Shown here in pieces: positions 2,344 to 48,431 of a stretch of DNA of 64,000 bases (its first letter is position 1; each line of letters opens with the position of its first letter). The position numbers and the translations under genes are program-made. The notes below the pieces were generated by a model. That model saw only the letters and a program-made list of their open reading frames with translations. It was not told the DNA's origin and ran no database searches. The DNA is from a virus, in IMG/VR virus record IMGVR_UViG_3300027710_001079, positions 62,001 through 126,000 of that record; one strand, 5' to 3'.

Positions 2344-3177
2344 TTAAGATGCAATTGACCTTAGCGTATTTTTTTGATACTCTGTAAGATTGTTTGGAAC
2401 AGATACCTTAATAAGTATCATATGATTTCCTTTAATGCCGGGATTGTTCATTACAGGCATTCCGTAACCTTGTATGCGTAAGAAAGAGTCTGGTTGAGTT
2501 CCTTCTTTTATTTGAACAGTTAGTTTATCACCACTGATTGTACTTACTTCAAGATCTTTACCTAGCATTGCATCCCAAGCTGTGATATTAATCTGTTCGA
2601 TAAGATCATTGCCGTTTCTTTGAAACCTTGAATGAGGGCGAATTCGTACTGACAACATTGCATCCCCAGGTGGAGCCCCTACAAATGAATTATCTCCTGC
2701 ACCGGCAATTCTTAACACTACTCCGTCATTAATGCCAGCGGGGATTTTAACTTCAAATGTTCTTTCTTGATAATTGCCTAAACGATAGCTGGCAATGATT
2801 TCTTTACCAGCAAATGCTTCCTCTAGGCTAATAACAGTTTCAAGATTTATGTTTTTATTACGTGGTGACCGTCTGCCAAACATTGCACCTATGTCCGGGC
2901 CAAAATGGTGAAAGAATTGTTCGAATCCCGGAGGAACTCCGCCAGTGTTTGCCTGTTGCCACCCACCAAGTGGATCTTGTCCAAACGGACTAGGATTGTC
3001 ATATGCTGCTCGCTTTTCTGGATCTCCTAGTGTGGCGTATGCTTCTTGAATTTTTTGGAAAGAGGCAGTATCACCGCCCTTGTCGGGATGGTGTTTTGAA
3101 GCCAGACTACGAAACGCTTTTTTAACTTCGTCTTGTGTTGCTTCTTTTGAGATGCCTAAAGTATTGTAATAGTCCAT
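2344..3177 (-). CDS. dnaJ: DnaJ/CbpA-like J-domain co-chaperone
   Basis: 277 residues. The J domain (about residues 2-65) has the HPD tripeptide at 30-32, which stimulates the DnaK ATPase. It is followed by a short Gly/Phe-rich linker (about 85-110) and a two-part C-terminal substrate-binding region. The CxxCxGxG zinc repeats of classical DnaJ are absent, so it is a type-B/CbpA-like protein. It presumably works with host DnaK, since no DnaK is seen here. It is the first gene of the dnaJ-def-clpA operon. The predicted transcript start (about 3188) gives a leader of only about 11 bases, and no clear Shine-Dalgarno site is seen. Confidence 0.9.
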   Translation of the reverse strand: MDYYNTLGISKEATQDEVKKAFRSLASKHHPDKGGDTASFQKIQEAYATLGDPEKRAAYDNPSPFGQDPLGGWQQANTGGVPPGFEQFFHHFGPDIGAMFGRRSPRNKNINLETVISLEEAFAGKEIIASYRLGNYQERTFEVKIPAGINDGVVLRIAGAGDNSFVGAPPGDAMLSVRIRPHSRFQRNGNDLIEQINITAWDAMLGKDLEVSTISGDKLTVQIKEGTQPDSFLRIQGYGMPVMNNPGIKGNHMILIKVSVPNNLTEYQKNTLRSIAS

Positions 3178-3181
3178 AAGA

Positions 3182-3210
3182 AAAGGTATAGTTTATTATA
3201 CTATACCTTT
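3182..3210. repeat. inverted repeat around the dnaJ promoter -10
   Basis: Ten-base arms AAAGGTATAG (3182-3191) and CTATACCTTT (3201-3210) are perfectly complementary around a 9-base centre holding the -10 hexamer. On the minus strand the second arm runs into TTTTCTT, so the hairpin could also act as a terminator for the lysis operon. Alternatively it is an operator for a dimeric repressor. Confidence 0.6.
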
Positions 3211-3223
3211 CTCTAATTGTCAA
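3195..3223 (-). promoter_or_regulatory. consensus sigma70-type promoter of dnaJ-def-clpA
   Basis: TTGACA (3223-3218, minus strand), a 17-base spacer and TATAAT (3200-3195): a perfect match to the sigma70 consensus. It lies 18 bases upstream of the dnaJ ATG. Confidence 0.88.
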
Positions 3224-12400: not shown

Positions 12401-12707
12401 CTGGTAACATTAGATCTACAATATCTTCGAAGCCATTCAGAGATGTCACGTGGTAGTCTTTATCGCCGATCATATAACAACTTGTCCAACTAATCTGATT
12501 ATTTGAGACCTCGTAAGGTTCCATCATTGCTAATAATAACAGTGTTTGTTCTCGTTCTTTGCCTTCCAACGTTCTTTTAGGAGGACCCGTAACTTTACGC
12601 AAGAATTCTTTCAACTTCACTGGGTCGTTTATAAGTCCAGCCATAAATTCTTCATAGTCAATTGGTTGTTTTGAGGATTTCAATGATCCGTTTTTGCTCT
12701 TGCTCAT
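12393..12707 (-). CDS. hypothetical protein
   Basis: 104 residues. A basic, Ser/Lys-rich start is followed by a helical middle and an acidic C-terminus. No family recognised. It overlaps the previous gene by 50 bases in another frame, which is long; the real start could be a little further in. Confidence 0.6.
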   Translation of the reverse strand: MSKSKNGSLKSSKQPIDYEEFMAGLINDPVKLKEFLRKVTGPPKRTLEGKEREQTLLLLAMMEPYEVSNNQISWTSCYMIGDKDYHVTSLNGFEDIVDLMLPDD

Positions 12708-12900
12708 GTAACCATTCCTCTTCTGGGCTAAACGTTGGACATTCTTTTAATAGCTTATCTAATTGCCATTTAAGTTGATATAAATCTTGTTTAACACCCC
12801 ACGCAACAAATCCGTCGTTGCGTGGATTGCTGCATTCTCGTGCTGCTGCACGAATTTGAGTAATAGCTTCGATAATATCGTAAGAATGTTTATAGCCCAT
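12658..12900 (-). CDS. small helical hypothetical protein, predicted leaderless mRNA
   Basis: 80 residues, helical and charged. The ATG at 12900 coincides with the transcript start predicted from the -10 at 12912-12907, and an in-frame stop lies nine bases further upstream, so no earlier start is possible. No Shine-Dalgarno is seen. First gene of the operon down to 8168. Confidence 0.65.
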   Translation of the reverse strand: MGYKHSYDIIEAITQIRAAARECSNPRNDGFVAWGVKQDLYQLKWQLDKLLKECPTFSPEEEWLHEQEQKRIIEILKTTN

Positions 12901-12906
12901 GTAGAT

Positions 12907-12935
12907 ATTTTATAGATTAAAAAAGGGTCTGTCAA
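12907..12935 (-). promoter_or_regulatory. sigma70-type promoter whose -35 lies in a terminator loop
   Basis: TTGACA (12935-12930), 17-base spacer, TAAAAT (12912-12907) on the minus strand. The -35 hexamer is the loop of the terminator at 12919-12943. Confidence 0.8.
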
Positions 12936-12943
12936 GACCCTTT
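12919..12943 (-). terminator. rho-independent terminator after the MazG-like gene
   Basis: Minus-strand stem AAAGGGTC/GACCCTTT with the six-base loop TTGACA, followed by six T. The stem and T-run are those of a standard intrinsic terminator. It ends transcription of the operon that includes the groES-like gene and doubles as promoter sequence. Confidence 0.85.
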
Positions 12944-15298: not shown

Positions 15299-15306
15299 TA
15301 TTTATC
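15299..15306 (-). promoter_or_regulatory. late-type promoter core (GATAAATA)
   Basis: GATAAATA on the minus strand, one base off the T4 core, predicted start near 15293 and ATG at 15274. It overlaps the stop of the protease gene. Confidence 0.5.
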
Positions 15307-16870
15307 CGAAGATTGTAAGGGGTGTTGCAGAATTAAAAATCTGGTATAATGCTTTTGCTGGCCCGCCTTGTAAGCTGCCCCAGTTAGTGTATCCTGAACC
15401 ACCGTAGTAACTTTCGTTAACTTTCCATGTGCTGGCCGTAGAAGTTGTCCAATTTAAACATTGTTGTTGATTCATCCAAGGCCTTGCCTGTAATACACAA
15501 GCCAGTGCACCTACAACTTGTGGAGCGGCTTGACTAGTGCCAGATATGGCATTTAGATAATAATTAGAATTTCTAGGATCTGCTACAGCAGGATATGCAT
15601 ATGCACTGTTTGCGTAAGCACCCATAATATAATCTCCTGGTGCCCAAATATCTACTCCAGGACCGGTACAACTGAATTCTCTTTTATGCTCGGGATTAAC
15701 CGAAGCAGTTGCAAATGCTGCAATTGCACCGACACAGATTACACCATTAGTACCTGCAGGTGTTGCTCCTCTGTGATAGTAATAAGTAAAACCTGTATAT
15801 TCAGTCCAGTAGTTATTGTAATCAAGACCACCGCTAACATCAATTTTATGACGATCGTTACCGGCAGCAGCCACTACAATAACTCCAGCATTTATACAAC
15901 TTTCTATTTCTGCATTTAGTGCAGGATAGAAATATCCGTGTACACCTATGCCACCTTCGGGGATTCCGATAGTTCCGTATGCAGCAGTAGTAGTTGATAC
16001 TGCATAGTTAGTGTTACGATATCTAATACCTGTTAATCTCGTGTAACTGGAAAAGAAACCAAAACTGCAATTAACAATAGTTGGACGCTTATAGCCAGTT
16101 GCAGGGTCTACAGCTTTGGCTATGTGGAATGCTCTAATAGTTTGCCAGACTTCAAAATCATCTAACAGTCCTAATACCCTATTGTCAGTAATATCACGTT
16201 CTGTAGTAGCACCTGAACCTACAGATCTTAAACTGTAGATATTAGCACCCGGTGCCCAACCTTGTGTGTTACCCGCCGCAATACTCGCACAGTTTGAACC
16301 GTGCCCGTCACAGTCCCCTAAAAACCCGCCGGTGGGTGCCGAAGCAATAATACCATGTTGAGTCCAATCATAATCAATTACTCTACTACCGCCAGTGCCA
16401 TCTGTGTTAACTGCAAATTCTGGATGGTTAGGTTCAACACCTGTATCAATAATAATTATATCAACTCCACCGCCATTTAGATTAAAAGTAAATGGACCAG
16501 TACTAGAACTATATCCTGTTGGAAAATTAGTCACAGTGCTTAGTCCTCTAACTAGTCCCCAATTTTTTGAAGTCTGAAAAGGTTCGATTGATTTGTTAAA
16601 AATACCTGTTCTAATACCTGTTGTTCTTTTCTTAACGCCCATTTCAATAGGGTCTCTATGAACTTCTTTGATCCTAAGATCAGACATCAGTGCCGCTGCT
16701 TCTTCGTCAGTTAACATCACAGTAGAATTGTGCTCACTGTGTGTCATCGGGTTAATGATTTCTACAGCACGTTCTGGAATTGCCTCATCTGAATAATCCG
16801 TAGTTAAATCTGCATGAACGCTGGGCTTATCATTTGGATTTTCAACTACGACATAATATTTTCGTAACAT
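15302..16870 (-). CDS. subtilisin-like serine protease (S8) in the tail-fibre block
   Basis: 522 residues from the ATG at 16870, which has AAGGA six bases upstream; an ATG two codons earlier has no spacer. In the numbering from that earlier ATG, the triad is intact: Asp144 (IIIDTG), His192 (DGHGSNC) and Ser448 (ISGTSQAAP), with the oxyanion Asn340 (AAAGN). The first ~95 residues, including VMLTDEEAAALMSDL, resemble an I9-type inhibitory propeptide. There is no signal peptide. Its place among fibre genes suggests a virion-bound protease that cuts a host surface protein or matures a fibre. Confidence 0.88.
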   Translation of the reverse strand: MLRKYYVVVENPNDKPSVHADLTTDYSDEAIPERAVEIINPMTHSEHNSTVMLTDEEAAALMSDLRIKEVHRDPIEMGVKKRTTGIRTGIFNKSIEPFQTSKNWGLVRGLSTVTNFPTGYSSSTGPFTFNLNGGGVDIIIIDTGVEPNHPEFAVNTDGTGGSRVIDYDWTQHGIIASAPTGGFLGDCDGHGSNCASIAAGNTQGWAPGANIYSLRSVGSGATTERDITDNRVLGLLDDFEVWQTIRAFHIAKAVDPATGYKRPTIVNCSFGFFSSYTRLTGIRYRNTNYAVSTTTAAYGTIGIPEGGIGVHGYFYPALNAEIESCINAGVIVVAAAGNDRHKIDVSGGLDYNNYWTEYTGFTYYYHRGATPAGTNGVICVGAIAAFATASVNPEHKREFSCTGPGVDIWAPGDYIMGAYANSAYAYPAVADPRNSNYYLNAISGTSQAAPQVVGALACVLQARPWMNQQQCLNWTTSTASTWKVNESYYGGSGYTNWGSLQGGPAKALYQIFNSATPLTIFG

Positions 16871-16879
16871 TGACATTCC

Positions 16880-17962
16880 TTACGATATCACTGTTCTATC
16901 AGTGAATAGTCTCCAATTGGCTCCGTCATAGAAACAAGGCTGGCCACCACCCGCTGCATCTACTACATAAAGTATTGCACCTTGCCTTGTAATTGCACCT
17001 AACGCAGATAATTGTGCAGTAGTCGCAGTAGTTAATACAAAAGGACTGTTGACAGTAATTTGTCCAGCAGCACGTAAATTAAGATCGTTACCTGATTGAA
17101 TAGTTGCAGCAGTGCTTACTCCGGTAACCGTTAAAGTTGAGATATACAGAGTTTGAACAGTGTAAGTATTGCCTACTACAGTAACAGCACCGGTTGCACC
17201 TAAATTACCTGTCGCCCCAATTAGACCAGTTGATCCAGTTAGGCCTATTTGACCCGTTGCTCCAGTAATACCAGTGGCACCTGTTGCTCCTCTTAGACCA
17301 GTTGCACCATCTAATCCAGTAGCACCTATTCCGGTAGCACCGGTAGCACCTTGTCTTCCAGAGATTGTAAACGTCCAGTCTGAGTATGTACCAGTTCCGG
17401 TGAATGCAGTGACATTAATTAATAATGTGTTTCCAGTTAAGGTGTTAATAAATCCGCCAAGACCAAATGAGCTATCTGCCCCAACTGGTGTTATCTTTAC
17501 AGAACTACCTGCAACAAATGCAGTTTCGGTGTCAAGTTTATTAAGAACAAATGTTTTAATACCTGTACTGATTGAGTGAGTTGAAGTAGAAGTTAATCCT
17601 TCGTATCCGGCACCACTTGCTCCAATTGCTCCTTGCGGTCCAGTTGCTCCTTGTGGGCCAGTAGCACCAGCAGATCCTGTGCTGCCTTGTGCAGCCGCAG
17701 TTCCAGGAATTCCCTGTACGCCAGTAGCACCAGCAGGCCCTGCTGATCCACTTTGTCCAGTAGCACCTGTAGAACCTGCAAACGCTACAGTTCCGTCTAA
17801 ACCTCTAGGTCCTGTTGCACCCGGAATACCAGTAGCACCGGTTGCACCCCTAGGTAATGGACCTGCAACCCATGCCGTTGATGTACTGTTGTAAACCCAT
17901 AGACTGCCGTTGTAAGTATAAACCTGACCGGCTGTTGGGCTTGATGGAAAATTTATTGCCAT
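16880..17962 (-). CDS. collagen-like tail-fibre protein
   Basis: 360 residues. An N-terminal segment (about 1-38) with VYTYNGSLWVYN leads into Gly-X-Y triplets (about 38-118, mostly GAT, GPQ, GST). A globular beta module follows (about 120-208), then a second triplet run (about 209-262), and a C-terminal domain ending in CFYDGANWRLF. Collagen-like triplets form trimeric rods in phage fibres. The globular module is a near copy of one in the next gene. Confidence 0.8.
   Translation of the reverse strand: MAINFPSSPTAGQVYTYNGSLWVYNSTSTAWVAGPLPRGATGATGIPGATGPRGLDGTVAFAGSTGATGQSGSAGPAGATGVQGIPGTAAAQGSTGSAGATGPQGATGPQGAIGASGAGYEGLTSTSTHSISTGIKTFVLNKLDTETAFVAGSSVKITPVGADSSFGLGGFINTLTGNTLLINVTAFTGTGTYSDWTFTISGRQGATGATGIGATGLDGATGLRGATGATGITGATGQIGLTGSTGLIGATGNLGATGAVTVVGNTYTVQTLYISTLTVTGVSTAATIQSGNDLNLRAAGQITVNSPFVLTTATTAQLSALGAITRQGAILYVVDAAGGGQPCFYDGANWRLFTDRTVIS
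17339..17605 (-). repeat. globular module copy 1 (shared with 19835-20101)
   Basis: About 89 codons starting [10 protein letters not shown] and ending TFTISGRQG. The residues are mostly identical to the copy at 19835-20101, so the two neighbouring fibre genes share a recent duplication or recombination segment. Confidence 0.75.
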
Positions 17963-48221: not shown

Positions 48222-48396
48222 TTGATTTTGTGTCTTTCTCTGCAAATTGCAGTTGTTCAGTTAACCATCCGTTAATTCGATTTTTATTCCAGCAATCAAT
48301 TGGAATATTACTAACTTCTGTAGGAGTTAGAATTCGATAGCTAGTAGTCGAACAGCCAGCTAACAAAATGATCACTAAAGAAAAAACCTTAAACAT
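48154..48396 (-). CDS. small lipoprotein, predicted leaderless mRNA
   Basis: 80 residues from the ATG at 48396. Signal peptide with lipobox LAGC (Cys15). Mature part CSTTSYRI...DCWNKN. The predicted transcript start (48396) falls exactly on the ATG and no Shine-Dalgarno exists. First gene of the envelope-protein operon. Confidence 0.7.
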   Translation of the reverse strand: MFKVFSLVIILLAGCSTTSYRILTPTEVSNIPIDCWNKNRINGWLTEQLQFAEKDTKSNGASINAIKHKIWQIRTDCNGR

Positions 48397-48402
48397 GTGT
48401 AT

Positions 48403-48431
48403 ATAATACAGCACATTTAAGGTTTTGTCAA
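48403..48431 (-). promoter_or_regulatory. sigma70-type promoter of the lipoprotein operon
   Basis: TTGACA (48431-48426), 17-base spacer, TATTAT (48408-48403) on the minus strand, right after the upstream metallopeptidase stop. Confidence 0.8.

Follow-up and report, generated by a model that had tools for sequence, protein, structure and literature searches.

The closest described systems to the element analysed here are PeSLs, which Arbiol et al. 2010 and Comeau et al. 2014 are said to have described as composite promoter-terminator motifs in the T4-type phages RB49, phi1, nt-1 and PST, and which belong to T4-type phages and are active early in infection. PeSLs have also been reported to mediate gene shuffling (by citation in the available part of PMC4503421). 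A second point of comparison is the kayvirus 515A1, whose early promoters and terminators were mapped by RNA-seq, with the consensus TTGACW, a 17-base spacer and a start 6 bases past the -10 box (available sections of PMC7698491). A third is recycling termination, in which the polymerase can remain on the DNA after RNA release and restart at a nearby promoter; in the available part of the source, recycling termination and facilitated reinitiation were shown in vitro, not in cells (PMC11347151).

Here, we propose that positions 12907-12943 (minus strand) of the window hold a compact cassette that joins a terminator to a promoter, in a tailed phage that most likely uses the host sigma70-type RNA polymerase, a reading to which we give a probability of about 0.82. 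The window is the whole 64-kb stretch of DNA that was analysed (62001-126000 in a virus record of 192,832 bases). The clamp loader has its matches among T4-type and jumbo-phage relatives, PA5oct being the closest at 56.7%. Like PeSLs, the element joins a strong sigma70-like promoter, recognised by sequence (11/12 consensus, 17-base spacer), to an overlapping stem-loop within a few dozen intergenic bases, and it is sited where neighbouring genes differ among relatives; the structure and the overlap are seen, and termination is predicted. The register differs. RB49, the type phage of PeSLs, has hairpins that occupy the spacer (e.g. TTGACAGGGGATCGGTGATCCCCTATAAT), whereas here the hairpin is shifted, being centred on the -35 box, which sits in its loop. 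About eleven of the RB49 sites listed have an inverted repeat between the boxes (by eye). Among A-N7-TTGACA-N7-T sites, fully paired arms were found (by eye) at 0/7 in T4, 0/11 in RB49, 0/26 in KVP40 and 0/29 in nt-1. We draw the conclusion that the element probably works like a PeSL, the sequence-level features tested all being present except the hairpin register, and that the -35-in-loop register is a variant of PeSL-like promoter-terminator elements, an assignment well supported by comparison, with function predicted. In the part of the literature covered, no title or abstract describes a terminator loop that contains a -35 box, and the PeSL papers may include an earlier description. As a separate observation, the RB49 inverted repeat fills the 17-base spacer at, for instance, 121708-121736 (minus strand; AY343333), and the related virus contigs L045, L108 and L273 carry spacer hairpins akin to those of RB49.

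Anatomy of the element and chance expectation

The minus strand at 12943-12922 is a perfect 22-base inverted repeat, AAAGGGTC-TTGACA-GACCCTTT (Table 1). The original prediction had placed here a hairpin around TTGACA with a T6 tract, the hexamer serving as the -35 box of a promoter with a 17-base spacer and TAAAAT; sequence, coordinates and box positions all agree with it, and a scanner found the 11/12 promoter and the terminator independently. Two details need amending. TTGACA does sit in the loop region, but its first T and last A pair, so that the folded loop is not six bases but four, TGAC; and T6 is present, but three of its six T pair with the AAA of the stem and only three remain past the full stem. 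Folded as RNA, 12943-12922 forms 9 bp with a TGAC tetraloop at -11.8 kcal/mol, against a mean of -4.65 (sd 1.95) in shuffles (z -3.67). The layout of an intrinsic terminator, a GC-rich stem and then a U-tract, is present (9 bp, 4 GC pairs, T6).

Table 1. Features of the element and two related elements of the window (window coordinates)
Feature	Position	Strand	Basis
Terminator hairpin AAAGGGTCT-TGAC-AGACCCTTT, 9 bp	12922..12943	-	Sequence, scanner, fold; conserved in relatives
T6 tract, predicted RNA release region and start of promoter spacer	12919..12924	-	Sequence; function predicted
-35 box TTGACA, hairpin loop region	12930..12935	-	Scanner
-10 box TAAAAT, 17-base spacer; relatives mostly TATAAT	12907..12912	-	Scanner, relatives
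ATG of 80-aa ORF, 6 bases past -10; predicted leaderless or nearly leaderless mRNA start	12898..12900	-	Inference
Upstream gene, MazG-like nucleotide pyrophosphohydrolase, 121 aa	12948..13313	-	PHROG 671 E 4.7e-35; PRA-PH PF01503
Downstream gene, 80 aa, without family match	12658..12900	-	ORF list and family searches
Related element, terminator-like hairpin with -10 TATAAT in loop; promoter TTGACA 3223-3218	3181..3211	-	Register scan
Related element, terminator-like hairpin with -10 TATTAT in loop; promoter TTGACA 48431-48426	48383..48426	-	Register scan

The -10 box at 12912-12907 matches 5/6 of its consensus, which completes the 11/12 promoter. After the stop codon of the MazG-like gene the minus strand reads CACC-AAAGGGTC-TTGACA-GACCC-TTTTTT-AATC-TATAAAAT-ATCTAC-ATG. 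The 47-base intergenic gap is wholly occupied by the element, and stop codon, terminator, promoter and start codon are packed into 53 bases (12950-12898).

How readily would such an arrangement arise by chance? TTGACA occurs 54 times in the 64-kb window. With at least 7 consecutive flanking pairs it is expected 0.066 times per dinucleotide shuffle (2500 shuffles), and without a -10 requirement a hairpin-flanked TTGACA turns up in 22 of 300 shuffled windows, a frequency that would suit mere coincidence of a terminator and a -35-like hexamer. Once a -10 box of at least 5/6 at 16-18 bases is added, the expectation falls to 0.0012 per shuffle (3/2500), against the one observed. The hairpin by itself is unremarkable; its combination with a correctly spaced -10 box is not. 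By these 3/2500 shuffles and the conservation of the element in relatives we reject a chance origin, the probability of which is next to nil. Over 5-21 kb, the scanner totals as such are not above shuffles (34 promoters vs 37.2; 13 terminators vs 10.9).

Conservation and stem pairing in relatives

Loci of relatives were chosen by protein similarity to the MazG-like gene, as the best 80 of about 600 per search and hence the nearest relatives; removal of duplicates left 127 unique of 231 loci. At 31 of the 127 MazG-gene ends a -35-like box lies in the loop of a terminator-like hairpin, with a -10 box at 17 bases (spacer 17 in 31/31), and most of these relatives match the promoter at 12/12 positions. 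By the thresholds used, 92/127 ends have no cassette; one of them (L690) has a -35-in-loop cassette with a poor T tract, and the others show no promoter with 11 or 12 matches. The remaining ends comprise 2 with a -10-in-loop hairpin, 1 with a weak hairpin and no promoter and 1 that is cut. With 31 cassettes against 1 promoterless hairpin, and no other strong promoters, terminators at this gene end are therefore nearly always joined to a promoter. In many relatives a C interrupts the T run.

The genes downstream of the cassette vary among relatives. In several of them the next gene starts within the stop codon (ATGA) and the cassette is absent, and one such next gene (N-terminus like MKIGFTCSTFDL) stands behind the cassette in L166, L586 and L665; judged from these sequences, gain and loss of the cassette take place while the flanking genes stay the same. 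The marking of gene exchange that is a PeSL feature is thus found here as presence or absence at the same gene end, with differing next genes.

Found in 72 virus contigs, the exact 22-mer is accompanied by a -10 box of 6/6 in 62 and 5/6 in 10, with a spacer of 17 in 71. Its upstream context is MazG-like by motif in 52/72 and other in 20/72, and downstream there are at least 35 different N-terminal readings (taken from the first ATG, so that some are not real starts). Several upstream contexts and so many downstream readings, together with the reported gene shuffling by PeSLs (PMC4503421, available part), are what one would see if the cassette were kept mainly as a short shared recombination site for gene swaps, its transcription roles being secondary. 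Recombination alone does not explain why differing stems come with the same loop and spacing, and both boxes and the pairing stay intact; we consider this account very unlikely.

Across 19 distinct cassettes the covariation score is 0.112 vs 0.023, and 98.2% of cells are paired vs 93.8% in shuffles; neither value is reached by any of 500 shuffles. Two pairs are altered on both sides (two being reached by 22/500 shuffles), in five cells (0/500). The stem GGGTC/GACCC becomes GGGAC/GTCCC or GGGCC/GGCCC. Independent stem events are few (4 further pair types) because the relatives are close.

A wider set comprises 23 distinct arm pairs that flank a hexamer resembling the -35 box, in most cases TTGACA, and come with a -10 box of at least 5/6; in 19/23 the spacer is 17. 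Many of these loci were fetched by TTGACA between A and T runs, so that 23 is not a frequency, and complementary arms were demanded only in the exact 22-mer search. A G-U pair occurs on the promoter strand in 9/23 arm pairs, while a parallel scan allowing A-C in place of G-U found 0 A-C pairs. Since a G-U pair becomes A-C when the opposite strand is read, the hairpin seems to be selected as RNA made in the direction of the promoter, as expected of a terminator acting on upstream transcription.

This strand bias also bears on whether the hairpin might act as DNA. Phage N4 has DNA hairpin promoters, and the perfect inverted repeat around the -35 box would suit a cruciform in which that box is exposed in the loop. 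Wobble pairs confined to the promoter strand (9/23 vs 0 A-C) are not what one would expect of a DNA cruciform, and the -35 box, the -10 box and the 17-base spacing are ordinary; we hold an N4-like cruciform promoter to be highly improbable. A DNA hairpin function of the N4 kind is thus disfavoured here, on the indirect evidence of the G-U strand bias. The original prediction that a single element both stops and starts transcription gains support at the level of sequence from the paired stem changes with the loop hexamer and the -10 box at 17 bases kept, from G-U pairs confined to the promoter strand, from the location between stop and start codons, and from a presence that varies among relatives.

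Hairpin registers and spread among phages

The original prediction had also suggested a genome-wide search for TTGACA in a loop, which yielded one more copy in the record and many in other phages. The second copy (record G000:C1, 190775-190796, minus strand, locus L043) reads AAAAACCAGTTC-TTGACA-GGACTGGTTTTTT, then TGTATAAT; its stem differs from that of the first copy and its -10 box is a full TATAAT. The 22-mer itself occurs once in the record, with no other copy when up to 3 mismatches are allowed. Among nine long related contigs, G004 carries both of the record's elements and AAAGGGTC is also in G008; in the other seven, none of the matches listed has arms that pair throughout (by eye).

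Which registers do terminators take relative to promoters? Of the 45 sites examined as the record's own promoters, 2 have the -35 register and 2 the -10 register. In other virus contigs, 805 promoters were counted, none chosen by DNA pattern. Terminators are centred on the -35 box at 12 of them (0.70 in shuffles), on the -10 box at 5 (0.20) and in the spacer at 3 (0.00), with none centred at 15-25 bases; separate upstream terminators peak at -45 to -40 (10 vs 0.15 shuffled). The preference likely arises since a box placed in the loop requires no complementary copy in the opposite arm. As for the -10-in-loop hairpin at 3181-3211 (minus strand), its tail adjoins the ATG of ORF 2344-3177, and the transcript of its own promoter would contain the right arm only and would therefore escape termination.

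Outside the record the design is also present in PA5oct (186470), in the cyanophages S-CREM1 and Sf-CH11, in Acinetobacter phage Phab24, in Staphylococcus phage vB_SscM-1, in kayvirus 515A1 (near 131656, 136757 and 32844) and in Lactococcus phage bIL170 (near 23540). Sf-CH11 and S-CREM1 have a weaker -10 box (CATACT, TATACT), and their stems are shorter or differently centred. That the carriers come from different families suggests, at sequence level, that the design was invented repeatedly. 515A1 resembles the record in its TTGACW promoters, 17-base spacer and some -35 boxes in terminator loops, and differs in belonging to another phage family with a Gram-positive host. Its 49 listed sites, some of which are terminal-repeat copies, give 46 distinct TTGACW promoters; in 4 of these a terminator loop contains the -35 box, against none in 20 shuffles of each, and the parts of PMC7698491 examined do not describe this overlap. 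Three further 515A1 hairpins are shifted upstream. Two of them, at 119145 and 125138 (plus strand; L766 and L767), show yet another register, the right arm of the terminator containing the -35 box TTGACT and the left arm its complement.

With the loci holding the 22-mer left out, the strict pattern in virus contigs has fully paired arms in 4 of 103 distinct sites vs 0.49 expected, 1/1000 shuffles reaching 4, which is a modest excess. In genome contigs of bacteria the count is 1/118, not above shuffles (0.39; 334/1000 reach 1). Another pattern, AAAAA-N3-7-CTTGACAG-N3-7-TTTTT, gave at least 120 rows, 92 of them distinct, and at least 27 of the distinct ones form a hairpin of 8 bp or longer; a -10 box of at least 5/6 follows in at least 19/27 with the hairpin vs at least 27/65 without.

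Among named phages, Blast found no match to the 1.2-kb locus. Blast of the 36-base cassette gave weak matches in 10 records (E 0.1 to 5), including Phab24, Sf-CH11 and S-CREM1 and also sequences from Mycobacterium and Streptomyces. In the named records seen, existing annotation covers at most half of the element (Phab24: 'terminator' only).

Proposed function and leaderless starts

How might one short element both stop and start transcription? A polymerase from the MazG-like operon would transcribe the hairpin and be released at the U-tract, between the -35 and -10 boxes. As duplex DNA, the same bases would form a sigma70 promoter, with the -35 box in the loop region, the U-tract in the spacer and the -10 box just after. 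The promoter's own transcripts would begin downstream of the hairpin, which could therefore not stop them. No multisubunit RNA polymerase domain or gene was found in the record, and the host polymerase is for this reason the likely user of the promoter.

Termination may be partial, given the three T past the full stem and the C-broken T runs of many relatives. These same two features would suit an arrangement in which a genuine promoter accompanies a hairpin that, instead of terminating efficiently, stabilises the 3' end of the upstream mRNA or marks a site of its processing, with upstream polymerases mostly reading through. We judge this unlikely: GC-rich stems with direct T runs recur with many different stems, the standard layout of an intrinsic terminator, and the scanner scores the hairpin as a terminator. 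Taking the hairpin as a terminator, then, what becomes of the released polymerase? In recycling termination, as here, restart is near the site of release, the promoter in this case being at the release site itself; the difference is that recycling termination is an in vitro mechanism at ordinary terminators, not a sequence family. Since recycling has been seen in vitro (PMC11347151, available part), feeding of the promoter by upstream traffic is possible. We offer only tentatively, as a rather doubtful extension, that RNA is released at the U-tract while the enzyme stays on the DNA across the -35 and -10 boxes and restarts in place. If so, the flow of the upstream operon would feed the downstream, often leaderless, gene, and the -35-in-loop and -10-in-loop registers would be convergent hand-over solutions of unrelated phages. 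The predicted release site lies inside the next promoter, and the cassette is therefore a natural test of in-place restart by terminating polymerases.

The new mRNA is predicted to begin at or next to the ATG. Of 31 MazG-end cassettes, 30 were counted (one had no usable start), and the distance from -10 to ATG is 5-6 bases in 13/30, 18-23 bases in 16/30 and 52 in one. Most of the 18-23-base group show an AAAGGA-like ribosome site, for which the 5-6-base group (L117, L126, L131, L143, L166, L582, L586, L591, L637, L645, L653, L665, L705) leaves no space. If transcription starts 6-7 bases past the -10 box, mRNAs of the 5-6-base group would begin at or next to the ATG and are predicted to be leaderless.

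The element shows how far control signals can be compressed in phages. Because it turns up with unrelated stems in several groups of phages, the design can be searched for and annotated. The cassette could also be used as it stands, as an insulated part, in building gene circuits.

Two other arrangements were observed in the record. At 154183-154386 of G000:C1 (minus strand, L035), three near-identical consensus promoters form a tandem array at intervals of about 90 bases, separated by A/T-rich repeats. In the window, at 15302-16876 and 16880-17962 (minus strand), a subtilase-family protease gene (PF00082) adjoins an ORF whose translation contains collagen-like GATG repeats.
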